Program-made: the position numbers and the translations under genes | Shown: positions 6,067-31,379 of the stretch, in pieces | Position numbering within the stretch: the first letter of the stretch is position 1 | Layout of the letters: each line of letters starts with the position of its first letter | From: a virus | Length of the DNA stretch: 37,256 nt | Reading direction: 5' to 3' (one strand) | Virus record (IMG/VR): IMGVR_UViG_3300023242_001468 | Span: 1-37,256 of that record | The notes under the pieces: model-generated | Told to the model about the DNA's origin: nothing | Databases searched by the model: none | Seen by the model: the letters and a program-made list of their open reading frames with translations, nothing else

Positions 6067-9000
6067 ATGAGCAATTATCCAGTAAAAATTGATACTGATG
6101 TTGAACTACCAAGAGTTGATGATGCTGCTACGGAGATAGCAGCTTCAGTCATTAATAAGATTCGTGAAGCTATCTTCTCGATTCAAACAACCCTTGGTAA
6201 AAGTCCTCAAGGATCTGCAACAGATCTTGTAACAAGGTTGTCTCAATCTATAAATGATGACGGAACTCTTAAGTCAACGGCCCTTGTCATTGATTCAATT
6301 GTCAATGCCCAGATAGCCTCAGGTGCAGCTATTCTAGAATCCAAGTTAGACTTGGATATCCCTACTCAGTCTCTTCAAGACCAGATTACAAGCAATGATA
6401 TCGATATAGCGGAGCTACAAAGGGCTCTTGCAGAGGTCATTAGGAATTTAGCTCTTCATGTATCTGGAGCTGGACTTAGACATGATACATTTGATATTGA
6501 TTTAAATAGCGCATATTTGATGAGTGCTCCGCCTGAGTTTACAGATATTGTTAGCACTGAACTTCATGGTGCACTGGTTGAAATGAATGATCGTTTCATA
6601 GATCATGCTTCAGATTCAAAAGTCGCTGCTCATAAAGCCTCTAGCATCTCTGTTGATGGCTCTAATTTTGATATCATTCCTATAACTGTGGATGATGTTC
6701 AAGAGGCCCTTGAGGCTCTTGATAGCTCCAGAGCTGTTGAACTAGTAGTACATAGAGACCACTTGCATGCAAACGGTTTCGACAACTGGGCGAATAACTC
6801 ACTTGGGTACAATCAAAACTTGCAATTGGTTCCATCTACATTTGGGCAAAAAGTAACTGCTCAGATGATATCAGGGACCAGGAATCAAATCCGGTTTGAT
6901 GGTATTGATCTAGCAGCCGAAGGTGTTAAGCAAGGTCATATAATAGTAATTGAAGATGGAGATGCTGCTGGACAGTATGTCATTGATGATATTGGCCCAA
7001 GATTGGCAGTTGGCTCTAAATCTCTTTTGAATTCAACTGATGCTGAAATTCAAAGTGTATTTATAAGAAGAAGCGAAATTGTTGATGGCTATGCTGATGT
7101 TGCAATCTATGGAGAGAGTAGCGATTTAACCTTCAAGGGCAATGTAGCTAGCGTAATTCATACAAACAGCTCTACATTGGACAGTCTTCAGATCTCTCGT
7201 CCTAATGCAGCTAGAGTTTTATCATTAGGGCTAAAGCCTAACCTGTTAGCAGGTGGCGAAACTCTTGATGTTGAGGTTGGCTTAAATGATGGAAGCACTA
7301 GATCTTCTACCATAACCTTGTCTGGTTCTGCAACTTTGGACTCGATAGTTTCCGACATAAATACTGAGTTTCATGGAACTTCTGCCTTTCCTGCTGCGGC
7401 GTATCGAGTTGGAGATGAGCTACTATTATCTCACAACTGGGATGGATATGTAGGTAATTACATTAAGATTCTCTCAACTGGGGATTCAAACAGTATTCTT
7501 GGGTTTGATGGTTATGGTTCTAATATAGTTAACCTTGCAATCCCTCCTACTGCTACATCTAAGTACTACGTTAATGGAGAGTTGTTAACAGGGTTTAAAA
7601 CGATTGCCTCAACTACTGCTTCTATTGCAGGTGCGGTTATAACTTTCACAGACTTCAATCCTGAGGATTCTGAGGTAAAACCTGGTAACTTGATTCATGT
7701 ATTAGATCACGCTACCGTTTCAGCTAGAGGGACTTATTTCATCACAGCCGTCTCTTCTACAACTGTGACTGTTCATACTTCTATAACTGGAAGTGCATCC
7801 GTATCTGTTGAAATTCAGCATGATGCAATCCCACTTGCAGAAATAGTAAACAGTGGTAATGCTCAAATAGTTGAGACGTTCTTAGATAGCTCAGGTAGAG
7901 CTAAATACAATTTACGTCTTGACTATGACAAATCAATCCCAAATCTAAATGTCTTAGACGTTAGTGATAACTTTATATCTGGAGAGTATCTACTCGTATC
8001 CACTGTTGTTACAGGCGGACATGAGTTAAACATAGGTGCATTAGGACTTAAGGTCTTGATTGAAACTGGATTCGTAGGTAGGAAGCGGATTTGGTCAGAC
8101 TCTAACATTGAATTTATAGAAGTTGAGATCACGGGTGCAATAAGTGCATCTCCCGCTTCAGTTGTCAATGTTTATGAACACATTAACGAGGAGGAAGTCT
8201 TAGAAGTAGCCTCTGTTAGAACTAATGGTTTAGAGTCTCTGTCGGATGTTAGAGATAAAAGATTATTTGGAACCATAGGTTTGGATGAATTGCGTGAAGA
8301 TGTAATTCAAACATACGTAGAGACGCCCTTGGCGGAATTGAGATCTGATGGTGTGATAAGAGGTCTTGACGTAATCACAGTGAATTACTTAGACTTTGCC
8401 TATCCTTCTAATAGCTCATTGCTCATTAGAGGTGGCACTGTTTATGTTGATGGAGTTCGATGTGATGTAAGAACTCAAACAGTTGTATTTCCAAATACTG
8501 CAGGAACATTCTTTGTGGTGTTGAACCCAATAGGTGTTTTTGAAATCATAAATGAGAGTGATTGGACTTTAAGTGAAATCTTGGAAAATGATGCTGGCAA
8601 CTTTGCTCTCGTTTGCAAAGTTGTTCACAATGGAACTATCCTGACTAGCTCTGAGGACTTGCGATTCTTCCTAGGTAATATCGATACGAAGTTGGACTTA
8701 ATCGTTGATGCGACTAATAATTTCACAGGTAATTTCTCCACATTTGAGGCAGCGTTGAATCATGCTAATAATATGCCTGCTTCTGAAAAACCTGTTATCA
8801 GAGTAGTTTCCAATTATCCTATTGATATAACTATTCCTAGCGGAAGTAGAGAATTAACTATTCAGATTGACGGCTATGTTGAAAGCATAACCAGCGCATC
8901 TCCATGTAGGATAGAGGGCAGAACTGTCTCAGATCGCACTCAGCCTCATGTGAATGGAACCCTTACTACAAGTGCAGGGTGTTCCAGTGTTGAAATATCT

Positions 9001-12000
9001 AATTTGAGCATTGGCGGCGTTTCTTCAATTACTAATACTGATAGAGCAATTATAAGAGACTCTCTTTTTGCTGGTAATCTTACATATACTCCTTCCGGAG
9101 TTGGGGTTATCAATGTTGATAATGTTTCATTTTCAGATGATGTTTCATTGTATACTTCTAGGGCTTATGTCTCCGGCTCTAGATTTTTAGGTGCTGGTAA
9201 TCGCCTGTATACAGCTGGCGATGTAACTATAACTGGCACAACATTTGACGAGGCTCGTTATACAGGTGAGGGCGGCACTGTAAATATATCCTCATGTATA
9301 TTTGAAAATCATAATGGAGTGACCACCATTATTTATAACGATGGTGGTCGTATCAATGTGGCAGATACATTGTTTCAAGATATAACTACTGATACAAGTG
9401 GAATTTTAGTAGATCTGTCTGCAAATGGCGGCACAATTAGTGATAGTACTTTTTCAAGTATAATCGTTACAGGTACTGCGCGTATTCTTTCGGCAAGTGT
9501 TTCCTCAAATGTATTGTTTGAAGGGAATACTTATACTTCTTCAAATGAGAATGTTGTAAGTACAATTTTCACTAATTGCGAAAATGCAACAGGAACTGGC
9601 GACTTACTAGTTAGCTCTAGTATATTCACATCTAATCGCAATGTAACTGCAGTTAAGCTCGGTGCAAATGGAGTCTGTGATAGCAACTATTTTGGTTCGA
9701 GTTCAACATTAGGTTACAATGTTGATGGCACTGGCTCTGCCAACGTTATAGTTTCAGGAAATCAGTTTTCCAGCATCATAGCGTCCGCCGTTGGAGTTGT
9801 ATTGAATTCCTCCTCAACTGGTGCGAATGTGTATGGAAACAACTTCACTGGAGCGGATGCTACAAGTATTGCCGTCAGCTTAACAAACTCTACAAAGGTA
9901 GTGATAGATTCCAATGTGTTCAATGCCTGCTCTCTTGCAAGTACCTCTGGTCAGCAGGATGACATCACTGTCAGAGATAATGTTCTGTCGGCTTTGGCTG
10001 AATCTATGACTGTTGGTAATAGGTTCGTCTTCAGTGGGAATAAGAAAGCCACTGAAACTATGACTTTGAACACTTCTTCATCTTCTGCATGGAAAGTTAT
10101 TGAAAATCAATTTAAGAGTGCTGGTGAGCTTAATTTTGCAGGAACTGATCTCTCTGATAGCGTTATCTCCAACAACACCGCTTCGAACATATCGTTTGGA
10201 ATAGGGTTAACCAGCAGCGTTATTGCAAACAACATCTCATTGATGGCTGCCCCTAATGCAGTTGACTTTATTGATGTAGTTTGTTCTCAGAACCACGGGC
10301 TTTGGAATTATGCAGATTCTGGAAATATCACTTGGTCACAAAGTATTGTTAATGAAAATATTTGGGACAATGGAGATGGCTATGTTGAATTTACGATAAA
10401 GAGTGATGGCTCCAATACGCCTTCGCTTGTAAATATCACTCAGAATACGTTTACCGACAATCACATTATTCTATCTGCTGTGAATCAGATAGATCAATTA
10501 TCTTTTGTTGATAATTTCTCTACAAACACCGGTACTCCAAGAATCTTGGATGTAAATGCGCACATTAATAATTCATACATTTCAAGAAATCTAAATTTTG
10601 GAATCAATGTAAATAGTGGCGCAGACAGTACTGTGATATCTTTAAATTCGCTAACGGACCAGGACCTTTTATTAAGTGGAACTGTCAATGGTACATCTAT
10701 TGATGGAAACTTTGTGAATAACTTAGTAGCTAATTGTTCGAGCAGCAATCTCAGTTTGTCGAATAATAAAATATTCAACGACCTCGAACTTTTCCAAGCT
10801 GGTGGAGATTACACTGTTAATAAGTCTAGTATTTCTAACAACTCAATTGTTGGAGATATGATTGTCGGTAGTGGGATATCTGGCACAGATACTCATGTGT
10901 TTACAAATAATGTAATTAATGGTAACTCCACAAATGCTATTCTGATTTTTGAAACAGATGTTGCCGCAGCCACTTATGAATTAAGTGGCAATACTATTTC
11001 AAATTCTCAAGTTAGCACTGATATTAGAATTTTGACAGCTTCTGGTAATTATGGTACTTCTGGTTTGACTATTAGTGGAAATACATTATCTAACAACAAG
11101 TCTGCTCAGATTCTTATTAGTGCAGGCGATGAAAATAAAGTTCCATATGAAAATACGGTCATTCAAGGTAATCTATCTCCTATCATTACAGTTGGTGAGG
11201 GAATTAGGTATACAAATCTGACTATCAACTCTAACACTGTTTCTAACTTAACTGTTGGAATTAACCCACGGGAAGGTGGTGGTGGAGGAACTGCATTTTT
11301 CACTAATCTCTCTATCTCAAATAACCAAATAGATGGCTACGTTGAGTTGCAGCTAGGGGATACTGGCGGGTTTTCTTATACAAAGAACGTATTAAATGGT
11401 ATCATTATATCTAATAACCTTGCAGCCGGAGTTGATTTAATATTTAGAAATGACTTCCAAACAAATGACGCACTATTGAAAGGATTCAATGTTTCAGGGA
11501 ATGCATGTCGTTCTTTCGCCATGCTTTGGGAGACAGGGTCTAGTTCTATAAATTCAGAAACGCTTTCTGTTATAGGTAATACTTTTAACGGAGTGACCGG
11601 CGGGCTGTGGGAGCCTGGCATATTTATGGACGTAGTTGATAGTGGCAATAAGTTCTACTACACTTCTTTTGATGGAAACGGAGTCGGGACTAATAATGAT
11701 GATCCTGACGTTGGTCCACCTATAGCTTCAAGTACTCATGAGATTCGTGTTACAAATAATACTTCAGCATTTATTAAGTTTTATGAAAGTTCAATCTCTG
11801 ATAACAAGGGTCTCCATATTGAGCTTGAGAATAATGGTGGTGATTTGAATTTTTCAGGAAGAATATCAAATAATTCATGGCTTCATCCTAGTAGCACTCA
11901 AGGAATCTCAATAAGCGGTACATCTACAAGTACGGATGTAGCTAATCTTATAATTTCAGGAAATCATGGAGCTCGTGCAAGCACTACCGGAAGTGGATTT

Positions 12001-12816
12001 ATTAATTTTCCCGACACTGCAACTATAGAAAACCTAACGATAGAGGGAAATCATTTCTTTGCAGATAATTTAGGAATTAATCTCAGTGGCTGTGGTGATT
12101 GCAGTAATGTTTCAATTTTAGACAACAGGATTGTAAATGGTAATGTTGATTTAAGTGATTCAAATCCATCGTACTTGACAGTTTCTGGTAATTTTATTGA
12201 AGGGTCTCCTGCTAATATTGGTTATGATTTAACTGGTCAAACCGGTGATATTGGTAACATATTATTTGCCGGAAATAATGGTCCTAGCATAGTTGATATA
12301 GATTCTACGGCGGCAGTATCGGGCTTTTCGTTTACAGGTAATAGTGGCCTTAGACTTAGATTTCAAAATGCAACGGGCATTGGATACTCAAATATTGTTG
12401 GAAATAGTCTTTCCGGATTATACATAGGAACTGCCGGGAATACTGTTGGCATTTTACACGCAGTCAATATTTCAAACAACTATATTGGTATCACGTTTGA
12501 TTATGAAAATATCGCAACATCATTGAGCTCAGTGATTGTGTCTAATAATATAGTGTATGGAGATATTCTTCTTCCTCCACTTGCGAAATACATTACAAAT
12601 GGGGGAAATTCTATTACTTTCAATTCTACTGATGTGGGGGGAATCGGTGCCTGGGAGTCAAATCTCGGAGCATTTGTAACTTTCGATTCAAATAGAGTGT
12701 TTGTATGGGGCAATCAAAGTGCGGCGACGACAACCACAAGCGTAGCATTCACAGGGGATACTGCTGTCGATCCAAGTACTGCAAATAATGTGTCTGGTGG
12801 TGGTATTACCAATTAA
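6067..12816 (+). CDS. Giant beta-helix tail fibre/spike-like protein 2, paralog of the preceding gene
   Basis: 2249 aa, one of the longest proteins likely in this genome. The ATG at 6067 lies behind GAGGA, which overlaps the TGA of the preceding gene. The first 110 residues match the upstream paralog closely (SNYPVKIDTDVELP, then ESKLDLDI), and the motif L-H-V-x-G-x-x-x-R-H-D recurs at 130-140. Matching modules continue to about residue 880: a VQEALEAL spacer motif, a flagellar-hook-like module (about 400-485), an NLIHVLDH module, and an IRGGTVYVDG module near 775. From about 900 to 2200 there are dozens of rungs of the type SNNxIxG, SGNTxSN or TNNVING, indicating a very long parallel beta-helix. 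The C-terminus is short and Thr/Ser/Gly-rich, without the beta-sandwich cap of protein 1. It probably builds a long fibre or spike for host contact. Trimerisation is inferred from family behaviour. Confidence 0.85.
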   Translation: MSNYPVKIDTDVELPRVDDAATEIAASVINKIREAIFSIQTTLGKSPQGSATDLVTRLSQSINDDGTLKSTALVIDSIVNAQIASGAAILESKLDLDIPTQSLQDQITSNDIDIAELQRALAEVIRNLALHVSGAGLRHDTFDIDLNSAYLMSAPPEFTDIVSTELHGALVEMNDRFIDHASDSKVAAHKASSISVDGSNFDIIPITVDDVQEALEALDSSRAVELVVHRDHLHANGFDNWANNSLGYNQNLQLVPSTFGQKVTAQMISGTRNQIRFDGIDLAAEGVKQGHIIVIEDGDAAGQYVIDDIGPRLAVGSKSLLNSTDAEIQSVFIRRSEIVDGYADVAIYGESSDLTFKGNVASVIHTNSSTLDSLQISRPNAARVLSLGLKPNLLAGGETLDVEVGLNDGSTRSSTITLSGSATLDSIVSDINTEFHGTSAFPAAAYRVGDELLLSHNWDGYVGNYIKILSTGDSNSILGFDGYGSNIVNLAIPPTATSKYYVNGELLTGFKTIASTTASIAGAVITFTDFNPEDSEVKPGNLIHVLDHATVSARGTYFITAVSSTTVTVHTSITGSASVSVEIQHDAIPLAEIVNSGNAQIVETFLDSSGRAKYNLRLDYDKSIPNLNVLDVSDNFISGEYLLVSTVVTGGHELNIGALGLKVLIETGFVGRKRIWSDSNIEFIEVEITGAISASPASVVNVYEHINEEEVLEVASVRTNGLESLSDVRDKRLFGTIGLDELREDVIQTYVETPLAELRSDGVIRGLDVITVNYLDFAYPSNSSLLIRGGTVYVDGVRCDVRTQTVVFPNTAGTFFVVLNPIGVFEIINESDWTLSEILENDAGNFALVCKVVHNGTILTSSEDLRFFLGNIDTKLDLIVDATNNFTGNFSTFEAALNHANNMPASEKPVIRVVSNYPIDITIPSGSRELTIQIDGYVESITSASPCRIEGRTVSDRTQPHVNGTLTTSAGCSSVEISNLSIGGVSSITNTDRAIIRDSLFAGNLTYTPSGVGVINVDNVSFSDDVSLYTSRAYVSGSRFLGAGNRLYTAGDVTITGTTFDEARYTGEGGTVNISSCIFENHNGVTTIIYNDGGRINVADTLFQDITTDTSGILVDLSANGGTISDSTFSSIIVTGTARILSASVSSNVLFEGNTYTSSNENVVSTIFTNCENATGTGDLLVSSSIFTSNRNVTAVKLGANGVCDSNYFGSSSTLGYNVDGTGSANVIVSGNQFSSIIASAVGVVLNSSSTGANVYGNNFTGADATSIAVSLTNSTKVVIDSNVFNACSLASTSGQQDDITVRDNVLSALAESMTVGNRFVFSGNKKATETMTLNTSSSSAWKVIENQFKSAGELNFAGTDLSDSVISNNTASNISFGIGLTSSVIANNISLMAAPNAVDFIDVVCSQNHGLWNYADSGNITWSQSIVNENIWDNGDGYVEFTIKSDGSNTPSLVNITQNTFTDNHIILSAVNQIDQLSFVDNFSTNTGTPRILDVNAHINNSYISRNLNFGINVNSGADSTVISLNSLTDQDLLLSGTVNGTSIDGNFVNNLVANCSSSNLSLSNNKIFNDLELFQAGGDYTVNKSSISNNSIVGDMIVGSGISGTDTHVFTNNVINGNSTNAILIFETDVAAATYELSGNTISNSQVSTDIRILTASGNYGTSGLTISGNTLSNNKSAQILISAGDENKVPYENTVIQGNLSPIITVGEGIRYTNLTINSNTVSNLTVGINPREGGGGGTAFFTNLSISNNQIDGYVELQLGDTGGFSYTKNVLNGIIISNNLAAGVDLIFRNDFQTNDALLKGFNVSGNACRSFAMLWETGSSSINSETLSVIGNTFNGVTGGLWEPGIFMDVVDSGNKFYYTSFDGNGVGTNNDDPDVGPPIASSTHEIRVTNNTSAFIKFYESSISDNKGLHIELENNGGDLNFSGRISNNSWLHPSSTQGISISGTSTSTDVANLIISGNHGARASTTGSGFINFPDTATIENLTIEGNHFFADNLGINLSGCGDCSNVSILDNRIVNGNVDLSDSNPSYLTVSGNFIEGSPANIGYDLTGQTGDIGNILFAGNNGPSIVDIDSTAAVSGFSFTGNSGLRLRFQNATGIGYSNIVGNSLSGLYIGTAGNTVGILHAVNISNNYIGITFDYENIATSLSSVIVSNNIVYGDILLPPLAKYITNGGNSITFNSTDVGGIGAWESNLGAFVTFDSNRVFVWGNQSAATTTTSVAFTGDTAVDPSTANNVSGGGITN

Positions 12817-14288: not shown

Positions 14289-16850
14289 ATGGCGATCATT
14301 CCAAATATTTTTGACCCAGTCCAGCCCGACATCTTCACTAGAGTTCGCACTCGTGAAAGAGTTAATGCGGTCTCTGGTGGGTCGCGCGTTTTAGCTATAG
14401 TCGGTGAAGGAGAAACTGAAGAAGATTTAGTTGTCTCTGCAAATGGTGGAGGTGCTGACGGGTGGAATTCTGATTTCTCTGGTACCAATAGTCCAGATGG
14501 TCGCCACTTTAAAATTTCCAAAATAGGTCTGATTGCCAATAGAACCAGCATCCTGAAAAATGGTATACCTCTTGCTGTGATAGAAGGGTCGATTACTTCG
14601 ACTGCTTTTGATAACAGGTATGATGCGAGAGTTGACCCACTCACTGGTCGAGTTGAGCTGCAAAGAGCCCATCTTGTGGATTTTGGATCTGATGCTAATG
14701 GAAATACTTTATATTATTCAGCTAGCACTTCAAACACTGGGACCGGTACAGTTGCGATTTCTCAAACATCATTGCTGGATGTTAATGCTCCGGCTGAAAC
14801 GTGGACTGCGAGAGTAGTTGGCGTGGTTAAGGACTCACTTGGAGATATTATCCCCGGTGAGGCTACAATCACAGTCACTGGATCAGAATCTGGTCAAGTA
14901 ATTGATTTAAATGGTAATGCGATTGTCTGGAAATCAGGCGGCGTTGTTACCAGCAATGGTATATTGAACATTGCCTTCACTGAAGGTGGAACACCATTCA
15001 ATGTTGGTGATAGATTCACCATGCAGACGGACAGTGGTGTTCTTTCTGCTAACGATGAGTTGAGCGCTAGATACATTGCTGCTTCAGATTTGAATACAGC
15101 TGAATCTTTCTTCTCTCCTTCTGATGCTTTTGCAGTTTATGGGCAACCGAGTGCTACAAACACTCTGTCGCTTGGTATGCAAATGGCGTTTGAGAACGGA
15201 GCGCCTCTTGTTACTGCAGTTATGGCGAAGCCACCTGTTCCAAGAAAGACTGATGAGTACCTTATAACTGCAGATAACCTTTTGACAGGTACTGTGGAAG
15301 GTGCTGCAGGAACATCCCTTCAAAAGGATACTATATTCCCACTGTCTATGAACGCTCTGCCGGACATTGATAGTAAGATCAATATCTTCGTAGTTAACAC
15401 AGATGGAACTGAGGAGCAACTTCTTTTGAACAAAGAAGACTTTTACGACACTGCATTGACCTCTGTTGCTTTAGGTTATAGCTCATTCGTGTCAGGACCT
15501 TTAACTGAATCGTACACTGTGTTCACTTCTCCTGAAGTTGAGCAGTCCTCCATTGATGGTTATGTTCAAATTAACAGCGGAAGTGAGATTTACTTCTCAT
15601 CTCCTACTGTTCAATTCTCTGCGGACAGATTAGCCACTGGTGAAGGTGATGTTGGCAAAGAGCTTGTTATTCTCTCTCCTACTGAGGTGGCGGGAACCTA
15701 CACGCTTGACAGTGTTGGCGATGGTTATGGCAATTTGAACGTTGCACTTGCTACAGGCTCTCCATCTGGAAGCCCTGGTGATATCTTTGACGGCTATGTC
15801 TCTTGGCAAATAGTTGATCCTAATGATACTGACCATGCTTACTTTGCAATCACAGATGATGTTGCAATTAGTAGCCTTACTGCAGGGAAAGGACTTCGAA
15901 TCTCTTATGTAGACACTCTTGATGCTGACTTCTTTGATACAAATTGGAGTGAAGCTAGCCAGGCTCTTGAGTTGGTAGATGTGCAATTGGTTTGCCCTCT
16001 TCCGATGCAAACTGTCAGTAGCATTCAGCAAGTGTTCAAAACTCACGTTGAGACTGAAAGTAATATTTTGAATCAGCATGAGAGAATCTTGCTGACAGGT
16101 GCATTGCTTGGTCTTACTGCAGATAATGTCATTGGTAATACTTTGGCTGCTGTTGAGGATGTTGGAGTACTTGAAGGTATTCAGGGTGATGATGCAGAAG
16201 AGGTTCTTCAAGGAAATATTGAAGATTTGGCTAACTACTCTGTTCCGGACGGATTTGGTAGCAGCTTTAGAACTGTCTACATGTATCCTGATGAAATTAC
16301 CAGAAACATTTCTGGACAGAACACTACTTTGCCAGGTTACTTCCAGGCTGCTGCATTTGGTGGATACCTTGGTGGTCAGCTTGATATAGCAAGACCTCCT
16401 ACATTTAACACATTAGGCGGATTCAATGTTCCTAATACCAAGCGTCTTAAGAAGCGTGTTAAAAATCAGCTTGCTGGTGCAGGTATTCTAGTTACAGAGC
16501 CGGTTGCTGGCGGTGCCAGAATGCTTTGGGGTAAAACTACAACACAAAGTGGGGCTCCTGAAGAGGAAGAGGTTTCCATCGTCTCGATTAGAGATCAGGT
16601 TGCCAGAACTGTTAGAGCTAGCTTGAGACCGTTCATTGGTCGTGTGCAAAGTCCTACAATAATTGCAGAGGTTAACGGAGCTATTGCGAAGTTACTGCGC
16701 TCTTTGGTTGGGCAAGGCTTGCTTTCAGGATTTGGTTCAATTACGGTTCAAAGAAACCCCATAGAACCTCGTCAAATTGACATAGGTATGGTAATCAATC
16801 CCACTGGACCGATAAATTGGATTTTCGTTGACCTGGTCGCTGAACTGTAA
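14289..16850 (+). CDS. Tail sheath protein
   Basis: 853 aa. The ATG at 14289 lies behind GAGGT. This is the contractile sheath subunit that polymerises around the tail tube. The C-terminal 150 residues carry the pattern best conserved in sheath proteins: GGFNVPNTKRLKKRVKNQL near 707, a GARMLWGKTT segment, SIVSIRDQVARTVRASLRPF, a long helix around GAIAKLLRSLVGQGLL, and a final beta region ending in WIFVDLVAEL. The N-terminus (PNIFDPVQPDIFTRVRTRER) resembles the strand-exchange arm. The length exceeds that of T4 gp18 (659 aa), so the middle must carry extra surface domains (Gly/Ser/Thr/Asp-rich beta regions, about 130-550). It is followed by the tube gene after 55 bases, a classic sheath-tube pair. 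Confidence 0.93.
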   Translation: MAIIPNIFDPVQPDIFTRVRTRERVNAVSGGSRVLAIVGEGETEEDLVVSANGGGADGWNSDFSGTNSPDGRHFKISKIGLIANRTSILKNGIPLAVIEGSITSTAFDNRYDARVDPLTGRVELQRAHLVDFGSDANGNTLYYSASTSNTGTGTVAISQTSLLDVNAPAETWTARVVGVVKDSLGDIIPGEATITVTGSESGQVIDLNGNAIVWKSGGVVTSNGILNIAFTEGGTPFNVGDRFTMQTDSGVLSANDELSARYIAASDLNTAESFFSPSDAFAVYGQPSATNTLSLGMQMAFENGAPLVTAVMAKPPVPRKTDEYLITADNLLTGTVEGAAGTSLQKDTIFPLSMNALPDIDSKINIFVVNTDGTEEQLLLNKEDFYDTALTSVALGYSSFVSGPLTESYTVFTSPEVEQSSIDGYVQINSGSEIYFSSPTVQFSADRLATGEGDVGKELVILSPTEVAGTYTLDSVGDGYGNLNVALATGSPSGSPGDIFDGYVSWQIVDPNDTDHAYFAITDDVAISSLTAGKGLRISYVDTLDADFFDTNWSEASQALELVDVQLVCPLPMQTVSSIQQVFKTHVETESNILNQHERILLTGALLGLTADNVIGNTLAAVEDVGVLEGIQGDDAEEVLQGNIEDLANYSVPDGFGSSFRTVYMYPDEITRNISGQNTTLPGYFQAAAFGGYLGGQLDIARPPTFNTLGGFNVPNTKRLKKRVKNQLAGAGILVTEPVAGGARMLWGKTTTQSGAPEEEEVSIVSIRDQVARTVRASLRPFIGRVQSPTIIAEVNGAIAKLLRSLVGQGLLSGFGSITVQRNPIEPRQIDIGMVINPTGPINWIFVDLVAEL

Positions 16851-16905: not shown

Positions 16906-17583
16906 ATGTCTTATCTTTATACCGGCACATCACAGGGTGCTGCAACAGCCACTGGGCTTTCTACTCAGATTCTGATTCAGGTTGATGGTCAAGGTGTTGG
17001 AGCTATCCAGAACTTTACCGTTAATCAATCTAGAGCAAATAAGAGAATCACAGAAGTTGGAACTGACGGAACTATTGAGATAGTTCCGACCAGTGGAGCT
17101 GAAGTGAGTCTTGATGTCCAACGAATCGTGTTTGACAAGAAGAGGATTACAGAATCTTTTCAGCGTGGGTTTTTGAACATTCATGCTCAGCGCATTCCTT
17201 TTGACATATTTGTTTATGACTTTAGTGATGTTCCGAGTGATACCCCTCTTGACGCTGATCCTTCAGGCTTGGATGTTGCAAGTGCATTTGATGCGCCAGA
17301 CAGTTCAGAAGGTCTTGTTACAACGGTTTATGAAAACTGCTGGTTCAAGAGTCTTAACACCGCATATGGAAGTCAAGATTACATTATCACTGAACGAGCT
17401 GCTATTGATGTTGAATTTGTTCACAGCTTCAAGGATGGCAAAAGTAATGTTCCCGCAAGTAAGGGTCAACCTGCCTTTGTGGATAGTCTTGAATACCTGG
17501 CTGATACTGGCAGACGAGGAAGTTTGGACGCCAGAGGTTTGGGTCGCATTAGTGACAGCTTCTCTGGACTACTTTCACCCTAA
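16906..17583 (+). CDS. Tail tube protein
   Basis: 225 aa. The ATG at 16906 has AAGGAG at ideal spacing. This protein forms the inner tube through which DNA passes. Its identity rests on size, its position directly after the sheath and before the chaperone frameshift pair and tape measure, and a beta-sandwich-like pattern: an N-terminal flexible arm, ILIQVDGQGVGAIQNFTVNQ, VSLDVQRIVFDKK, IPFDIFVYDF and a C-terminal IDVEFVHSFKDG strand. An acidic loop rich in Asp/Pro/Ser (about residues 108-135) could be a surface loop. It ends in tandem stops TAA TAG, followed closely by a terminator-like hairpin. A 9-bp tetraloop hairpin lies at 17067-17088 within the gene. Confidence 0.85.
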   Translation: MSYLYTGTSQGAATATGLSTQILIQVDGQGVGAIQNFTVNQSRANKRITEVGTDGTIEIVPTSGAEVSLDVQRIVFDKKRITESFQRGFLNIHAQRIPFDIFVYDFSDVPSDTPLDADPSGLDVASAFDAPDSSEGLVTTVYENCWFKSLNTAYGSQDYIITERAAIDVEFVHSFKDGKSNVPASKGQPAFVDSLEYLADTGRRGSLDARGLGRISDSFSGLLSP

Positions 17584-17654: not shown

Positions 17655-17745
17655 AAATTCGATGTTTTTAACCTAATGATGTATATATAGATAGAGCTTG
17701 AATTTTATCAATCAAGTTTCACCATATGACAAGGAGAAATTATAC
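17655..17745 (+). promoter_or_regulatory. Leader of the tail-chaperone gene
   Basis: This region after the terminator contains GTATATATAG (17681-17690), a possible -10-like element, but no convincing -35 partner. The strong ribosome-binding site AAGGAG (17731-17736) lies 9 bases before ATG 17746. Because a terminator precedes it, a promoter here is expected if the downstream baseplate genes are not read by read-through. Confidence 0.35.
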
Positions 17746-18321
17746 ATGGTATCCATAGAACATTCGATGACAAGTAACCAGAATGAGTTTAAAGTGCAAG
17801 CGCAGGAGACTAAAGAAGTAGTAGTTCGGCCTGCTGAAGATGAAGCTTTATTTCACCAGCAAATGGAAGAAATGAGTAAATTCGCTGTTGATGGCGAGGC
17901 GCCAGAATCATATGTAGATCCTGTATTGAATGTTGACTCTAAAAGGAAAACAGATGCGGAGAATTTCCTGCTTTATAACAAGCCTATAATTCATAAAGTC
18001 AAGATTAATGGTATGGTATTTTCTCTTAAAGTTTTAAATTCTCTAGATCATGATGAAATCTTCCATGAGGCTGTTAAGCTTTCCGCCTCTGAGCAGATGA
18101 CTAAGACTAGTCGGTTTATTCTTGCAGCTTGTTTGACTGATGTTGATAACGTTCCTGTTGAATTTGCATATTCTGGACCTGATTCTATTGAAAGTGTATT
18201 GCTTCGAAAATATGCGGTAGTAAGTATGTGGCCATCTACATTGGTTACAAGTTTGAACAAAGCTTATCAGGAAATTGTCAAGAAGTCTGAAGAGGAGTTT
18301 TCCTACGATTTTTTAGACTAA
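17746..18321 (+). CDS. Tail assembly chaperone, short form (G-like)
   Basis: 191 aa. I choose ATG 17746 because AAGGAG lies 9 bases upstream. An in-frame TTG at 17698 would add 16 residues but has no ribosome-binding site and lies in the leader. The N-terminal 75 residues are acidic and Gln/Glu-rich. Residues about 80-185 form a compact domain (KINGMVFSLKVLNSLDHDEI, then RFILAACLTDVDNVPVEF, then a helical end), similar in layout to G/E-type chaperones that bind the tape measure during tail assembly. The last codons GAT TTT TTA GAC TAA contain a perfect slippery heptamer. Position between tube and tape measure is the hallmark of this gene pair. Sequence similarity to named families cannot be tested here. 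Confidence 0.8.
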   Translation: MVSIEHSMTSNQNEFKVQAQETKEVVVRPAEDEALFHQQMEEMSKFAVDGEAPESYVDPVLNVDSKRKTDAENFLLYNKPIIHKVKINGMVFSLKVLNSLDHDEIFHEAVKLSASEQMTKTSRFILAACLTDVDNVPVEFAYSGPDSIESVLLRKYAVVSMWPSTLVTSLNKAYQEIVKKSEEEFSYDFLD

Positions 18322-18671
18322 TCGGTAATAATTCACTCCATCGATTAAGATGGAAGATTGCTAAAATGCTAAACAAGCCGGTTAATGATGAGTTTTTTAA
18401 TTTTCTTACGATTCATGATTGGAATTATTACTCAGCACAATTTAATTTAGATCAGGAAGAAGAGGTATTAAATCTAAGGAATGCAATAGAATACCATGCA
18501 ATGTTTATCAATCACGAAGGCGTAGATCATGTTAAAACAGCAAGGGCTCAGGCTGAATTAGAAAAAGAATTCGGTGAAAATAATATTGAAACTCAACGTT
18601 TCGGTGATGATGAGTTTGCTAAGTTTATATCAAGAGGAACTGGAAAGGCTCCTGTGTTTCAGAAGAGGTAA
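17746..18671 (+). CDS. Tail assembly chaperone, -1 frameshift fusion (GT-like)
   Basis: Predicted product of ribosomes shifting back one base at 18309-18315: codons 17746-18315 in frame 0 followed by 18315-18671 in the -1 frame, 308 aa in all. After the shift the frame reads RLIGNNSLHRLRWKIAK and then joins the ORF that begins at ATG 18366, with no stop codon in between. The segment RLRWKIAKMLNKPVNDEFFN matches the start of T-type chaperone domains (a helix with a W/L-x-x-A-K-x-L pattern, followed by a Trp-x-x-Tyr/Phe region), which argues that the domain begins upstream of ATG 18366. In lambda and P2 the fusion is made at a low ratio to the short form and recruits tube protein to the tape measure. 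Confidence 0.75.
18309..18354 (+). promoter_or_regulatory. Programmed -1 frameshift site with downstream hairpin candidates
   Basis: The heptamer T_TTT_TTA (18309-18315) is phased exactly as X_XXY_YYZ in the frame of the short chaperone (GAT TTT TTA). Two alternative stems follow. TAATCGGT (18319-18326) with ATCGATTA (18340-18347) gives 8 pairs including one G-U. TCCATC (18337-18342) with GATGGA (18349-18354) gives 6 perfect pairs. The frame-0 stop TAA (18319-18321) lies within 10 bases of the slip site. P2 uses a closely similar T_TTT_TTG site in its gene E. Confidence 0.8.
18366..18671 (+). CDS. T-part of the tail assembly chaperone, readable as a separate 101-aa ORF
   Basis: 101 aa from ATG 18366, mostly helical and acidic, with NFLTIHDWNYYSAQFNLDQE near the start and a basic C-terminus (GKAPVFQKR). 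Only a weak GGAAG (18352-18356) stands before the ATG. It is more likely expressed chiefly as the C-terminal part of the frameshift fusion, because the -1 frame is open from the slippery site and the conserved-looking helix starts before the ATG. It ends 2 bases before the tape-measure start, consistent with coupled translation. Confidence 0.7.
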   Translation: MLNKPVNDEFFNFLTIHDWNYYSAQFNLDQEEEVLNLRNAIEYHAMFINHEGVDHVKTARAQAELEKEFGENNIETQRFGDDEFAKFISRGTGKAPVFQKR

Positions 18672-18673
18672 AG

Positions 18674-20902
18674 ATGGTTGATATTGATTTAGGTATAACT
18701 CCAGAAACTGCATCGGCAACAGGGAACTTAATTGGATCCTCTGCAGGTGCGGCAATTGTTAAATCACTTTCTGAGAGTATACCTGGACTTGCAACAACTA
18801 CAGCTAAAGGCTTCATTGACATTATGGGCAAGGATGCATTTTCAGGTATGACTGCTACTGCAAAGGAAGCTGCAAATCATGTTAGTGCGGCTGGTGGCGA
18901 CCTTAAAGGTGCAATAGATAAATCTGCTGATAAACTTGCTTTCGAAGCTGAAAAGGCCGCGAAAGCGATATTTAAAGAGTTATCTGGTAAAGAATTAACG
19001 CTAGATGCATTAGTCGATCTTGATACATCTAAGTTGTTAGATAAAGCTAGAGGTTTGGGCGAAAATGCTATGGGCGATGTGCTTGTTGGCATCGGTATTG
19101 ATCCTGCATCTGTAGAAATGCTGAAAGGAAGCCTAGGTATAATTCAAGGTTTGATTGAACCTATGTTAAAACAAGAGGTATTTGTAGAAATTGCCGTTGG
19201 CAAAGGCATGAAGGCAATGGATAACATTCTATCCGGCGTATCTAAAACAATAGGAACTTTTGAAGCGCCGTTGCTTGCTGCTAATCGGGAAGCAGTTTCA
19301 TTGGCAATTCCTTTTATGAAATTGTCTGGCGCGGGTGGTGGGCTTAGAGATGTTAGCGATGCTTTAGTAGAGTATCGAGAAAGAATGGTTCAAGCTAGCA
19401 AACAAACTGGGTTGTCGGCAACTGAGTTAACAAAACTTGAACATGCGTTTGTCAGCAGTGGTGTTTCTGCAGAAGAGATGTCCGCCCGCACAAAGTTATC
19501 TTTTGACAATAATGCAGGTGATTTAACTGGCCTCGCTGCAGCTGCTGTCGCATTCAAAGGGGCTGGGCTTGATGCTGCGGATGGCGCCACCGAGATGTCA
19601 TTCGCTATGCGCAATTTAGGCCTCAGCTCTAATGAAGCGCTAGAACGCTTGGGCATTTTTGCAGAGGTGTCTAACAGGACCCCTGAATCAATGACAAAGG
19701 TCACTGAGACGATTACGCGTGGGGCTGCGTCATTAAAATATTACGGCGATACTACAAAGGGTGTTGCAGAAGTATATGATAAGTTCTTGAAAACTGTAGG
19801 TGAGGGAAAGGAAGGCTTGGCTGCTGACTTTGTTCAAACTATAGTCTCCGGTATTGGCGGCATGAATGAGGGACTTAAAGCATTTATAGGTCAAACTAGC
19901 GGATTAGGCGCAGGTCAAGGCGCTATAGGCGGCATGTTAGAGGTCGAAGAGCAAATTGCAGATGGAAATATACAAGGAGTTATGGATGCGCTTACTAAGC
20001 AGATAGAGACGATTAGTGGCACAAGTATACTTGGTAGGCAGGAAGCAATATCAACTGGCAGCCAAGAGCAGTTTTTCATTCAAAGAAAGTTACTACAAGA
20101 TTTCTTAAATGTTCAGGATCCTGAACAGGCCACAAGATTGATGGAAAATATATCTAGAGGTCAAGATGTAATGGCCTCAGATTTAAAAGCAGCTAGAGGT
20201 TTGGCTGGCGTAGGCTCTAGAGGTCAGCAGTCTGTTCAGGCTGAATTAGGAGTTTCCCAGAGACTTCAAAATGTGGCGGACGTTACACGTAATTTAGGTC
20301 TCACTCAATCTATTGCAAAGGCTTTACAGGAAAGCTCCGGTAACTTTAAGCCAGCTGCGGACACCTTATTGCAATCTGTTGAAGGATTACAGAGCCTTTT
20401 AAACAAGGATCTTTCCGAAGTTCTAATATCTGGCAGTCAGCTTGAAAGTAAAATGAATGTTCCTGTCGCTGACGCTGTTAGTGAGTTATCTTCCAAGGAT
20501 TCTAGTGGCATTACAACGTCAGGACTTGCCACTAATGTTAAACACACTGCCTTAGAAAATCAATACTTCACTGGAGACATTGGGGAATCTGGAAAGCGTG
20601 CATCTCTATTGGGAGGAATAAGCTTAAGTTCCCAAGCGGAGCTTGGAAAGAATAATTTTGATCAACTTACTATGACTGGCTTCAAAAGACAAAATTCAGA
20701 AAGGGAAAAGGAACTTTCTACCTTGGCCGGGCAAATTGCTGAACTGGCCAAATCAATGGATTCTTCAAGGGAATTCAAAGGGCAGAACCAGGATGAGCTT
20801 AAAGACATTGTGTTAAGAATAACTATTGATCCTACCAAGATGGAACAAGTGGTAAAGGGTCAAATTGAGAGGAAAGAAAAAGAGCAAGTTAATGGAAGAT
20901 GA
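18674..20902 (+). CDS. Tail tape measure protein
   Basis: 742 aa. The ATG at 18674 has AGAGG overlapping the end of the preceding ORF. Position directly after the chaperone pair and the composition support the call: almost entirely helical, rich in Ala, Gly, Ser and Lys, without Cys, and with long amphipathic stretches. Residues about 250-340 (ATELTKLEHAFVSSGVSAEE and following, Ala/Gly-rich) resemble the conserved core of tape measure proteins. The C-terminal 80 residues are a charged helix (ELSTLAGQIAELAKSMDSS). At roughly 0.15 nm per residue the tail would be about 110 nm long, a rough inference. No peptidase or lysozyme domain is apparent. The gene holds an 18-base perfect palindrome at 20110-20127. 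Confidence 0.85.
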   Translation: MVDIDLGITPETASATGNLIGSSAGAAIVKSLSESIPGLATTTAKGFIDIMGKDAFSGMTATAKEAANHVSAAGGDLKGAIDKSADKLAFEAEKAAKAIFKELSGKELTLDALVDLDTSKLLDKARGLGENAMGDVLVGIGIDPASVEMLKGSLGIIQGLIEPMLKQEVFVEIAVGKGMKAMDNILSGVSKTIGTFEAPLLAANREAVSLAIPFMKLSGAGGGLRDVSDALVEYRERMVQASKQTGLSATELTKLEHAFVSSGVSAEEMSARTKLSFDNNAGDLTGLAAAAVAFKGAGLDAADGATEMSFAMRNLGLSSNEALERLGIFAEVSNRTPESMTKVTETITRGAASLKYYGDTTKGVAEVYDKFLKTVGEGKEGLAADFVQTIVSGIGGMNEGLKAFIGQTSGLGAGQGAIGGMLEVEEQIADGNIQGVMDALTKQIETISGTSILGRQEAISTGSQEQFFIQRKLLQDFLNVQDPEQATRLMENISRGQDVMASDLKAARGLAGVGSRGQQSVQAELGVSQRLQNVADVTRNLGLTQSIAKALQESSGNFKPAADTLLQSVEGLQSLLNKDLSEVLISGSQLESKMNVPVADAVSELSSKDSSGITTSGLATNVKHTALENQYFTGDIGESGKRASLLGGISLSSQAELGKNNFDQLTMTGFKRQNSEREKELSTLAGQIAELAKSMDSSREFKGQNQDELKDIVLRITIDPTKMEQVVKGQIERKEKEQVNGR
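20110..20127. repeat. 18-base perfect palindrome inside the tape measure gene
   Basis: TGTTCAGGATCCTGAACA reads identically on both strands. It encodes VQDPEQ in context. It could bind a dimeric protein or simply be chance. A perfect dyad of 9 half-bases is expected less than once in a sequence of this length. Confidence 0.6.
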
Positions 20903-26535: not shown

Positions 26536-28740
26536 ATGAGTTACAATGGGACTTTTGAAAATCTTATTAGAGTTGGTATTATTGAAGCTGTTGACTATGC
26601 TCGACAGCAATGCACCATTAGGCTTTATGACAGAATAGATCAGCAGAGATTTAGCGTAGCTCTCCCGAATCCAAGTAGTGGCATGGATTCGGGAGTCTAT
26701 CATCATCCTGAGCCTGGAACTATGGTAGCAGTAGGCTGGTCTTATCGAGAACAGCCTGTCATCCTCACTACGCTCCCATCCTCTGCATTCTCTAAAGACT
26801 CCACTCTTGAAGGAAACAGCGAGGATATCTATGTCGGTACTTCCGGTTACCCTAAACTTGGAAGAGGAGAGGTTGCACTTTCTGGAATAGGTGGCACTGA
26901 AATAAGACTTGCGAATCTAGGTTGCATCAATATGAGTTTCGGAGATTCGTTCTTCGATCTAGATTGCAGTGATCGCTCTGTGTTAAGTGTAAAGGAAACG
27001 CTTCAGTCTACTGAGGCTGGATTTAAAGTGTCAGGAGTTATTCTAAGAGACTTGAGAAGCCTTACTAGCAAGGATGAAGCTCTTGAGAATAAGATAACGA
27101 ACTCATCTTATTTGAGAAATCTAACACCTATCTCAAGAGATCCTATATTTGCACCAGCTTCAATTACCAGTTCATTAAAAGATGGATTAAGTGAAGCTCA
27201 AAGAAATCCTCCTTTCATAGAAAACAAAAGTATAGTATATGAATTTGCAAAATCATATATGGTTGATACGTTGGATGAAGAAGCATCTAGACTTAATGAA
27301 GATGAAGAGCATGACTTCTTATTTCAGCCAAGTAACCGTAACAATACAAGATACAATATTCTAAATCTCAACACTGATAATCCTAATCTTTTGATAGAAA
27401 AGACTGAAGGAACTCTTGTCGACATTTATGGAAATATACTTGATTTAAATCGTAGTCCTATTTTGTTTCCTGGTGACACTGAGGGAAAAAAAAGCACCAA
27501 GGAAAGACTTCAAAAGTTAGAGACCCTAACTAGAAGAAGTGTTAAGCTTCATTATGAAATAAATTCCAGAAAGGCTTCTAAAGGTCAGGTTTCGACCACT
27601 ACCTTGGAAGGTGGTGATGACTTAGCGGTTGGACATACTCACTCAAGGTGGAGCTTCGATGTAGATGGTGAAGGACTTACCAAGATTAACATCCCTGCCT
27701 CTTCAAATGTGGGGAACATTCCACTTTTAACAAGGTATGTTACTGCTAATTTAAGGGCGAAAGATTCAACTGACGAATCTGCATCTCAGACGTCAGATTC
27801 AACTGGTAACGATTCTCAATTTAATGATATTTCTAATCCACGAGATATATTCTTCAGACCTACTAGTGTAGATGGTGTTGATACTAATCAGGATATATTT
27901 CACCTAGCTTATGGTGATTTGTCCAGTGATGGGATTCCTGTTCACTTAGCTCCAGGCAATATTGGGGAAAAAGGTGGACCTACTCTTGCATATAGGACTG
28001 CGTATCATGATATAGTTAATACTGCTCCTAAAGCGTTAGTTGGGCCTAATATACCTGGAACTCCTGGACAATCTGCATTTGTCCCTGATGGTTCTGCGGA
28101 TGCCTTTTCGAACTTATTTGATGACATAGTTGGAGCGGCGGCTTCTTCTTTACCTGTATCTTCGGCTGGTGCTTCAACTCCTGCAACACCTCCTACGGCA
28201 ATTAGAAACATATCTCTGAACAATGCATTTGCCGAAGAGGGAGCCCCTGTTCCAAATGTTGGTGGTAGAAGCATTTTTGCTAATTTGGACGGCAGCGTTG
28301 AGTTTAACATTGGTCGAGATTTCATTGATCATAAATCTATGGTCTTGGATACATCAGGTGGTATTATAAGTCGAATTGGAAAAACCAGAGCGGAGTCCAA
28401 TAATGCTAGTATCATTAGCCAGTTGGATGGAAGTGTATTTATACAAATTGGTGGTGATAGTATTGAAGGTGAGGAGAAGATTGCGGACCCAAAGGTTAAA
28501 TTGGTAGTTCAAGGTAGCAAGGGGACTGATGAGATATCTATTGATGCAAATGCTGTGCGAATTAAAACTGCGGCTTCGGGCAAGAATTTGATTCTTGAAA
28601 GCTCAAAAAACTTAATTCTCAAAGCAAATGGTGTTCTTATGCTTGCAGGTTCAACTGTAGCTGTACATGGTACAGTGGATGATACGGGAGATATTATAAG
28701 TCCCGCTAGGTTGATAAGTCAGACAGGTAAGGAGATATAA
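26536..28740 (+). CDS. Central spike / baseplate assembly protein V-like (gp5-like, no lysozyme seen)
   Basis: 734 aa. The ATG at 26536 follows AGGAAA. Residues 1-90 are an OB-fold of the gpV/gp5 type: GIIEAVDYARQQCTIRLYDR, the YHHPEPGT segment (55-62), then VAVGWSYREQPVIL. Residues about 100-570 are a long polar, apparently irregular region with an HTH tripeptide (H367, H369). From about 585 to 720 repeats such as LDGSVEFNIGRDF, SGGIISRIGKT, LDGSVFIQIGG and GKNLILESSKNLILKANG indicate a beta-prism or beta-helix spike of the kind found on membrane-piercing devices. The lysozyme domain of T4 gp5 is not present as far as can be seen. The stop overlaps the next ATG by one base (TAATG), implying translational coupling. 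Confidence 0.85.
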   Translation: MSYNGTFENLIRVGIIEAVDYARQQCTIRLYDRIDQQRFSVALPNPSSGMDSGVYHHPEPGTMVAVGWSYREQPVILTTLPSSAFSKDSTLEGNSEDIYVGTSGYPKLGRGEVALSGIGGTEIRLANLGCINMSFGDSFFDLDCSDRSVLSVKETLQSTEAGFKVSGVILRDLRSLTSKDEALENKITNSSYLRNLTPISRDPIFAPASITSSLKDGLSEAQRNPPFIENKSIVYEFAKSYMVDTLDEEASRLNEDEEHDFLFQPSNRNNTRYNILNLNTDNPNLLIEKTEGTLVDIYGNILDLNRSPILFPGDTEGKKSTKERLQKLETLTRRSVKLHYEINSRKASKGQVSTTTLEGGDDLAVGHTHSRWSFDVDGEGLTKINIPASSNVGNIPLLTRYVTANLRAKDSTDESASQTSDSTGNDSQFNDISNPRDIFFRPTSVDGVDTNQDIFHLAYGDLSSDGIPVHLAPGNIGEKGGPTLAYRTAYHDIVNTAPKALVGPNIPGTPGQSAFVPDGSADAFSNLFDDIVGAAASSLPVSSAGASTPATPPTAIRNISLNNAFAEEGAPVPNVGGRSIFANLDGSVEFNIGRDFIDHKSMVLDTSGGIISRIGKTRAESNNASIISQLDGSVFIQIGGDSIEGEEKIADPKVKLVVQGSKGTDEISIDANAVRIKTAASGKNLILESSKNLILKANGVLMLAGSTVAVHGTVDDTGDIISPARLISQTGKEI
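26662..26695 (+). repeat. Perfect 12-bp GC-rich inverted repeat inside the spike gene
   Basis: CTCCCGAATCCA (26662-26673) is exactly complementary to TGGATTCGGGAG (26684-26695) across a 10-base loop. The first arm begins 126 bases into the coding sequence of the spike protein, in the OB-fold. It is the most GC-rich long stem noticed inside a coding region in this window. Confidence 0.6.
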
Positions 28741-31379
28741 TGGGTTGTTCAATAGTTGGTCCTACTAATCCGATTAGTGATTTGATTGCAAGTTCTTTGG
28801 GAGCTAACTTCTCCCCTCCTTATGATTTGAACTTTCAACCTGTGGATCGAAGCAAGTTAACTGAAGAAAAGTTCTTAAAAATGAACACTCCTGGCGGCGG
28901 AAAAATAAAGCCAATTGGGGATCCTAAACATAAGCATATCACCGAATACATATCCCCTATAGCAGGAGTACTAGGAAGTGTGTTCGCTTTATTTGCACCT
29001 CTTTACATCATCTTGGATGTCATCCGAGCTTTGATTGATATTATTTGCTCGCTTTTCAACCCAGTTCCTCTTATTCTTACGGTGGTTGATTTATTTTTAA
29101 ATGTAGTTCCTCCACTTATAGCTCTCTATCCTCCTCTTTCAGCAATTCTTCATGCTATAAATGCAGCGAAATTAATCACTGCAATTGTAGGTGGTATTGT
29201 AAGTTCTCTGATCCCTATTATTGCAAACGTAGTAGAGTGCGGTCTATCTATAGAGACTTATTTATCAGAAGGTAATATCAGTGCTATTGACAATATAGGT
29301 GTTAAAATCTGTGAGCTGCTTCAAGATTTTGCAAATACAATTGCCGGTTTTGGCCCAATTAAATTTATACTAGATTTGCTTGAAATGTTCTTAGGTTTAG
29401 GTGCTAAGTTTTTCTGTATTGGCGCTCCTGCTGGAGATAGTCCGTGCTGTACTACTGAAAATTGTCCGCCGATGATTATCAACCCACCTGCCGGGAATGG
29501 TCTGATATTAAATACTGTTAAGAAATTTACATTAAAAGATCTTGCTACATACTTATTGGACGTCTTTAGCCCAGTGCTTGAAACTGTGACTGATGTTATG
29601 AATAGGGTTGTCGGTATAATTGAAGATCTTGTTGAGATAACTCTTTCCTCAATTATAGATGCTATTGTATTCCTTCTTGATGCTGTGAATGGTTCTCTCT
29701 TTGGAGCTCTTGATGATTTCATCGAGGATCTTAATTTAGATTCTGGTTCTGTCGGTGGCCTTAATATTCCTGATTTCACTGTACCCACGGCTCCTGATGA
29801 ATGGCAAGATGTAGTGTTTGTGCAACCTGCAATGTACTTGGAATATAAAACTGCATTTAGTCAACCGAATGAGAACGGCCTTGTTTCTCAGATTGGAGTT
29901 GGCCATGAATTCAGTGCATCTGAGTTATCTGAAATACAGAATTTCATTATACCTCCTGATGCCATACCTGTGCCGTTGCCTAAGTTGCCAAGCTTCTTAG
30001 GAGGCACGAGTGATAGTGAGGCGGGACAAGACCCGGCTACAATTAAAGTCAAAATCACAAGGCCGAGTGGTAGTTTGGTTGAAAGGACTGTCATTGCTGA
30101 AAGGAAAAGGTTCAGTTACAATACCGTTGGTATGGATTTCGATCCAATTGTAGTACCCGGAACCACTCAGACTGCATCTGGTGCTGCTGGATCGGTTGAG
30201 TTTAAACTTCCAAATGGAGGTTCTCATCCTTTATTTATAAACGAGATACCATTTGTTGCAGGTACATTGCCACAGAGTTTTGGTAACTACATGGTTGATT
30301 ATGAAAATGGTGCAGTTGTAATTTTTGTTGGTAATAACATTACTCCATTTACCGCAGACCAAGCCATTACGTACGATTCAAGCCGTGAAGTTATAATGAG
30401 CTATAGCTATAAAGACACTGCTAATGCACAATCTGTAATAGCAAGTGCAGTTTATGAATTCCCAACTTTGCCTCAAATGCTGGCTGGGCTAGGCCTTCCT
30501 AATACTACGGCATCTGAACAGATTGTTAGAGATTTATTTCAACTTCAAGGGCTTGGGTATATACCTCTGAGGTCCCTTGGTGTTATTCATGTATTTGATG
30601 ATACATTTGAAACTGGCGACGAAGTAGAATATGAAATACTCCCAGTTCAAACAGAGCTTCTTAAAAACAATTTGATTGGACTTGGGTGTCAGAATGATAT
30701 TCAATCTGCTGCTCAATCATTGACCTCTTTGATCAATGCAGATATAGGCTCTTTACCACCTGGGTTGAATGCATTGGATCCATTGAAGGAGAAAATTGGT
30801 CAAAGCTTTCCTCCACCTCCAGAGCAAGGTTTACAGGAGTTGTTAGATGAGCTTACAGAAGATCCTACAAAACCTGTGGATCCAATTCCTCTTCTAAACA
30901 ATTATTTGGAAGAAGTCGCTGAGTTTGCAGATCAAGTTCTTTGCGTTGGAGTTAGCTCTGTTACCAGTGTGTTTGAAGCATCTAAACCATTTGTTCTTGC
31001 AAATGGCAAAGACTTTTCAACCTTATCTTTAAGGATAAAGGATCAAGGTGGAAACGATCTACTTGTTGGAGGTTTACTTCCCAGTTCTAGCTTTAGGGCT
31101 GAATTTCTAACTACATTAGGAGATGTGGGAGAGGTAGAATTCGATCCAGATACTGGCTCGTTCTACGCTCCTATTTCAAGTGAAATTGTAGGTATAGCTG
31201 ACATTACTGCCAGGTTTATAGTTAGGGATAAAGTTTGCTCAACTATATCTGAGTTCTCAGATTTATCCGTTAAAGATCAGATTGTTAGGGTTGAGTTTGT
31301 CCCTGAGCGGACAATTGCGCCTCGCACCAGACGTCAGCCTCAATATGTCCAATCTAGAGGTGGCAGAGTAAGGAGATAA
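28740..31379 (+). CDS. Unknown baseplate-locus protein with hydrophobic N-terminal third
   Basis: 879 aa, ATG 28740 coupled to the spike stop codon. Residues about 69-175 are a dense series of hydrophobic helices (GVLGSVFALFAPLYIILDVI, VPLILTVVDLFLNVVPPLIA, LITAIVGGIVSSLIPIIANV). Amphipathic helices follow to about 320, among them a Cys-rich loop near 229-242 (CCTTENC). Residues about 340-640 are beta-rich. The C-terminal 170 residues resemble an Ig-like/invasin-like domain (PFVLANGKDFSTLSLRIKDQ) and end in a basic tail (RTRRQPQYVQSRGGRVRR). Position directly after the spike suggests a protein carried by the baseplate that touches or enters the membrane. I do not recognise a family, so this role is speculative. 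Confidence 0.7.
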   Translation: MGCSIVGPTNPISDLIASSLGANFSPPYDLNFQPVDRSKLTEEKFLKMNTPGGGKIKPIGDPKHKHITEYISPIAGVLGSVFALFAPLYIILDVIRALIDIICSLFNPVPLILTVVDLFLNVVPPLIALYPPLSAILHAINAAKLITAIVGGIVSSLIPIIANVVECGLSIETYLSEGNISAIDNIGVKICELLQDFANTIAGFGPIKFILDLLEMFLGLGAKFFCIGAPAGDSPCCTTENCPPMIINPPAGNGLILNTVKKFTLKDLATYLLDVFSPVLETVTDVMNRVVGIIEDLVEITLSSIIDAIVFLLDAVNGSLFGALDDFIEDLNLDSGSVGGLNIPDFTVPTAPDEWQDVVFVQPAMYLEYKTAFSQPNENGLVSQIGVGHEFSASELSEIQNFIIPPDAIPVPLPKLPSFLGGTSDSEAGQDPATIKVKITRPSGSLVERTVIAERKRFSYNTVGMDFDPIVVPGTTQTASGAAGSVEFKLPNGGSHPLFINEIPFVAGTLPQSFGNYMVDYENGAVVIFVGNNITPFTADQAITYDSSREVIMSYSYKDTANAQSVIASAVYEFPTLPQMLAGLGLPNTTASEQIVRDLFQLQGLGYIPLRSLGVIHVFDDTFETGDEVEYEILPVQTELLKNNLIGLGCQNDIQSAAQSLTSLINADIGSLPPGLNALDPLKEKIGQSFPPPPEQGLQELLDELTEDPTKPVDPIPLLNNYLEEVAEFADQVLCVGVSSVTSVFEASKPFVLANGKDFSTLSLRIKDQGGNDLLVGGLLPSSSFRAEFLTTLGDVGEVEFDPDTGSFYAPISSEIVGIADITARFIVRDKVCSTISEFSDLSVKDQIVRVEFVPERTIAPRTRRQPQYVQSRGGRVRR

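Follow-up and report, generated by a model that had tools for sequence, protein, structure and literature searches.

The stretch of viral DNA analyzed here (a virus record of 37,256 bases, hereafter the window) very probably carries a G/GT tail assembly chaperone module of a contractile-tailed phage, in which GT would be made by −1 slipping of the ribosome on the heptamer T_TTT_TTA. Judging from the nucleotide sequence, we assign this reading a probability of about 95%. The frameshifted G/GT device as such is already established: a homologous annotated pair is present in Bacillus phage G, and the arrangement is widespread in tailed phages. Specific to the window's clade is T_TTT_TTA, where most relatives have A_AAA_AAA, A_AAA_AAC or A_AAA_AAG, and most of the hairpin shared by the family is absent in the window.

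Slip site and genomic setting

Two overlapping open reading frames (ORFs), G and T, are situated between the tail tube gene and the gene at the tape-measure position. The features of the region are as follows.

14289–16850, + strand: tail sheath gene, upstream synteny (PHROG 2839, tail sheath, E = 8.6 × 10−9)
16906–17583, + strand: probable tail tube gene (phrog_985, virion structural protein, E = 3.7 × 10−6, together with position, from which the name tube is taken)
17731–17736, + strand: Shine-Dalgarno sequence AAGGAG of the G ORF, 9 nt before ATG 17746 (direct reading)
17746–18321, + strand: G, tail assembly chaperone, product of normal translation, 191 aa; 207 aa if an upstream TTG is the start (profiles of relatives, fold, hhalign)
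18292–18297, + strand: Shine-Dalgarno-like GAGGAG, candidate stimulator (suggestive only), 11 nt upstream of the slip site
18309–18315, + strand: slippery heptamer T_TTT_TTA (phase; position kept in 35 of 37 distinct loci)
18315–18671, + strand: T domain in the −1 frame, 118 residues and stop, C-terminal part of the predicted 308-aa GT fusion
18324–18362, + strand: predicted downstream RNA structure, candidate stimulator (outer stem 18324–18329/18357–18362, inner stem 18337–18342/18349–18354)
18674–20902, + strand: gene for a 742-aa protein at the tape-measure position (position only)

The 3′ end of the G ORF reads TCC TAC GAT TTT TTA GAC TAA, both by eye and by script. The heptamer is thus in the phase X_XXY_YYZ, with the single sense codon GAC before the stop codon TAA (18319–18321). 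The −1 frame contains no stop from 18288 to 18668, terminates at 18669–18671 and is in register with ATG 18366. Computed from these frames, a −1 slip at 18309–18315 yields a G+T fusion of 308 aa, for which the predicted junction peptide in the window's virus is ...SYDFLRLIGNNSLHR. Past the slip, reading resumes with AGA CTA ATC GGT ... (RLIGNNSLHRLRWKIAKMLNK...) and continues up to the stop at 18669–18671. A previous sequence-only reading had placed T_TTT_TTA in phase at the end of the 191-aa ORF, which was correct to the base, and had given the same fusion length. It had also described the −1 frame as open from 18315 to 18671 and joining ATG 18366; it is open from further upstream, starting at 18288.

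Approximately 61 in-phase XXXYYYZ heptamers occur in the ORFs of the window. Among them, T_TTT_TTA at 18309–18315 is followed by the longest open −1 frame (118 codons; next longest, 57) and is the only one located near the end of an ORF with a long −1 frame. Since this frame is uniquely long and the same place is kept in relatives of about 18–44% G+T identity, we do not regard the heptamer as a chance match.

The gene order sheath–tube–G–T–742-aa ORF is the same in the window and its relatives, the last gene being equated with the tape measure by position only; a profile search with the product of 18674–20902 returned no match naming a tape measure. Baseplate proteins are encoded downstream, including a gp25-like protein (33097–33525). 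The sheath of the window comprises 853 aa (up to ~1,100 aa in relatives). Known sheaths were matched only by its C-terminal ~170 residues, pointing to a large, divergent N-terminal part. When genome contigs were searched with the sheath, no relative was found, and no link to a host was obtained. Further observations in this neighborhood comprise (i) an 879-aa protein of the baseplate region (28740–31379) with weak matches to Invasin domain 3 and tape-measure profiles; (ii) two very long ORFs upstream of the tail genes (1453–6057, 1,534 aa; 6067–12816, 2,249 aa), the former with right-handed beta-helix domains; and (iii) an additional open frame of ~200–240 aa between tube and G in six relatives (L015, L016, L017, L020, L039, and L047), several of which lack an early ATG in this frame.

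Relatives and the start of the T domain

Relatives were collected by a search with the sheath protein, which yielded 54 loci on viral contigs, the longest of 335 kb, and further loci were added by tube searches. A profile of T was then run on the six frames of all loci, giving 37 distinct T domains, all of which were examined. In 35 of these, including Bacillus phage G, a slippery heptamer is located 0–2 codons before the G stop. The heptamers of the family are A_AAA_AAA, A_AAA_AAC, A_AAA_AAG (e.g. L036), T_TTA_AAA (L052), and T_TTT_TTA, with the first three accounting for most loci and the last being confined to the small clade of the window, L007/L010, and L061. Overall G+T identity of the relatives to the window is 18–44%, so recent common ancestry does not explain the persistence of the slip site. 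The two exceptions are SPO1, with an annotated +1 slip, and locus L006. Neither loss of the heptamer nor an independent start of the second ORF, which the sequence-only reading had named as contrary evidence, was seen as a pattern among the relatives; the check for a retained heptamer and an open −1 frame, proposed at the same time, was positive in the 35 loci.

In every viral-contig locus that holds the region, T occupies the −1 frame relative to G; the exception is the deletion variant L006. This locus (contig IMGVR_UViG_3300033153_008214, 62 kb) shares 99.8% identity with L007 and is missing 115 nt at 12640–12760. Compared with the near-identical L007/L010, the deletion removes the slip site and fuses G and T in a single open frame of 293 codons. 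L006 may represent a genuine variant that produces the fusion alone, or an assembly error at a short microhomology.

The start of the T profile coincides with the slip, HMM position 1 falling within 0–6 nt of it in nearly all loci. The conserved block xxEPxxRLRWKLCK starts at the slip point in the same 35 of 37 loci, and its core, EPxxRLRWKLCK, is the most conserved part of T (W13 is invariant; E6, L11, R12, and K17 are conserved to at least 90%). In the predicted model of T, this block forms the helix of residues 7–18 (pLDDT ~79–95). The suggestion that SLHRLRWKIAK, upstream of ATG 18366, is real protein was therefore well founded, its counterpart RLRWKLCK being among the most conserved parts of T and a confidently predicted helix.

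These data bear on the alternative that T is a separate protein, whose translation is initiated or reinitiated at ATG 18366, or coupled to the G stop, without any shift. ATG 18366 is indeed present, with GGAAG ~9 nt upstream, and a few relatives carry an ATG at the G stop (TAATG in L022 and L027). However, conservation of ATG 18366 is lacking, and most relatives have their first T-frame ATG 29–110 codons into the domain. In 29 of the 33 loci checked, as well as in the window, the T frame contains no ATG, GTG, or TTG before the conserved RLRW helix that could start a complete domain (27 loci by script; L073 and L074 are added, as their starts come only after FIY, the motif corresponding to RLRW). 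Translation of a complete T domain as a separate protein is thereby excluded for the majority of the family. In the window, a start at 18366 would lose 17 residues, including most of the conserved, confidently predicted helix, and the conserved heptamer would be left unexplained. We consider a separately translated T very improbable. An annotation of two separate ORFs would miss the beginning of T, as had been anticipated: the domain begins at 18315, and its conserved block precedes ATG 18366.

Slightly less probable still is that the two frames are joined by RNA polymerase slipping on the T6 (or A7) run and not by the ribosome. Homopolymer runs of 6–7 in most members could in principle permit this, but the run is short, the phase is always X_XXY_YYZ, a downstream hairpin covaries, and the heptamers of L052 and L036 agree better with tandem tRNA re-pairing. 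That the split reflects a sequencing error or gene decay, conceivable in principle at error-prone homopolymer runs, can be dismissed in view of the independent contigs: 35 distinct loci, drawn from many independent metagenomes and including phage G, share the split at the same place, and the region of the window recurs in L001 with no difference in the encoded proteins.

Candidate RNA signals around the slip site

In most relatives, a GGAGCC...GGCTCC hairpin follows a few nucleotides 3′ of the heptamer. Across the family, 92.9% of the alignment cells are paired at this hairpin and eight cells carry double changes, compared with a mean of 1.3 in shuffled alignments. The covariation score was 0.234, versus 0.122 for shuffles, none of which (0 of 500) scored as high. 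The corresponding pairs are GCGAC/GTCGT in phage G and GGATCC/GGATTC in L061. Counted from the alignment, only four of the six pairs are kept in the window and L007. The structure predicted for the window at 18324–18362 differs from the family hairpin; its outer stem begins 8 nt past the heptamer, and its folding energy of −10.1 kcal/mol corresponds to a modest z-score of −2.2, with 7 of 200 shuffled sequences folding as well. The structure of L007 has a z-score of −3.0. We do not claim base-pair covariation of the window's stem with that of L007, because the outer stem is out of register.

Upstream Shine-Dalgarno-like elements aid −1 slipping at other known sites (PMC10885494). The equivalent of the window's GAGGAG in L007 is GGGGAG, likewise 11 nt before the slip. 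In a conservation test within the gene, this site was stronger than most windows of G (mean rank 0.14; 0.5 expected). Codon shuffles matched the signal 16% of the time, and purine-rich Glu/Lys codons explain it in part. Because codon shuffles often do as well, we regard the element as suggestive.

We put forward tentatively, and at rather low odds, that the recoding signal was rebuilt within this phage group while the protein pair remained unchanged. Most members have A_AAA_AAN with the GGAGCC/GGCTCC hairpin, and the window, L007, and L061 have T_TTT_TTA. The window and L007, missing most of the old hairpin, may rely on the upstream Shine-Dalgarno-like element and a differently placed stem, and L006 would have dropped the shift through the 115-nt deletion that fuses G and T.

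Chaperone identity and comparison with known systems

The identity of the window's G and T as tail chaperones is supported by profiles, fold, and synteny, in line with the sequence-only reading, and this support runs through the relatives and the fold. Relatives of G matched PHROG tail assembly chaperone families (phrog_2792, phrog_2992, and phrog_344) with E-values down to 2.3 × 10−8. The suggested check against chaperone profiles was thus positive for relatives of G, but it was negative for the window's own G and T, whose profile search gave no match naming a function and no chaperone match. For G and T, neither tblastn against cultivated phages nor a PDB sequence search returned matches, and Pfam scans of members of both families gave scattered matches at chance level. 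With Foldseek alone, neither G (best E = 0.55) nor T had a significant match. In a second look, the G model was compared with 694 PDB chains using VIA-align. The top match was the HK97 tail assembly chaperone 2ob9 (Z = 7.0, a moderate value; 4.0 Å, 96 of 107 residues aligned), followed by YqbN 3klu (Z = 6.7), while from rank 5 onward Z was 3.6 or lower. Both proteins share the predicted fold of G residues 63–181, with ~10% identity and no match at the sequence level in the PDB. This second look, supported by the profile evidence, points to an HK97-type tail assembly chaperone fold for the modeled G protein.

The closest cultivated relative is the pair gp181/gp182 of phage G (NC_023719), annotated as a frameshifted tail assembly chaperone with a joined CDS. 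By hhalign, E-values were 1.8 × 10−14 for G versus gp181 and 1.2 × 10−13 for T versus the −1 frame of gp182. The two systems share the −1 direction, the heptamer directly before the G stop, and the order sheath ... G–T–tape measure, and the phage G sheath is the best cultivated match to that of the window. They differ in the slip site (A_AAA_AAC in phage G), in the longer T region of phage G (252 aa), and in its much larger tape measure. SPO1 gp10.2/gp11.1 (L063) has a related T domain at the same position of the locus (hhalign E = 1 × 10−6). Unlike the window's pair, it has an annotated +1 slip and no XXXYYYZ heptamer, and its G is not detectably similar by profile. Comparison of SPO1 with the family indicates that the shift direction or the G partner changed during evolution. 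A +1 arrangement of the SPO1 type was ruled out for the window, as T is in the −1 frame there and in the relatives. The gp181/gp182 pair has been discussed in the literature as tail assembly chaperones (PMC8570332, section 3.8); apart from this paper on phage G, our literature search for jumbo phages, tail assembly chaperones, and frameshifting in combination gave no paper.

Among classical systems, P2 E/E′ uses the heptamer T_TTT_TTG, which is T-rich and of the same kind as the window's and differs from it in the last base. Compared by description, this pair (reviewed in PMC5009743) resembles the window's in the contractile tail and differs in sequence family. Lambda G/GT likewise has the heptamer before the G stop, a low-level −1 shift into T, and a location before the tape measure gene (PMC5009743). 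The likeness to lambda is claimed without sequence similarity, and lambda differs in being a siphovirus in which shift rate and ratio were measured.

From the site, its phase, the open −1 frame, the conservation of both site and T frame, and the homology to annotated frameshifted chaperones, all of which can be read in the sequence, we infer that slipping occurs at some frequency and that GT is produced in some yield with a role in assembly. For most ribosomes, translation would end at TAA 18319, giving G (191 aa). A minority of them would slip back by one base on T_TTT_TTA, with tRNA-Phe and tRNA-Leu re-pairing with TTT TTT, and translation would continue from A18315 in the −1 frame to give GT (308 aa). 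The Shine-Dalgarno-like GAGGAG upstream and the RNA structure downstream may promote the slip. In the lambda model, G associates with the tape measure, and GT, through its T part, brings in the tube subunit (PMC5009743). By analogy, G of the window's virus would coat the tape-measure protein (probably 18674–20902), the T domain of GT would recruit tube subunits, and neither G nor GT would end up in the virion.

For annotation, the start of the T domain is corrected to 18315, reached via the frameshift, from ATG 18366. Remaining interest lies in the clade's change of heptamer and of candidate stimulatory structure and, if real, in the L006 fusion. The ~35 natural slip sites, with their swapped heptamers and covarying hairpins, constitute a usable data set on the evolution of recoding signals, and the G/GT device persists across a large set of contractile-tailed relatives of phage G, most of them uncultivated and some of jumbo size.
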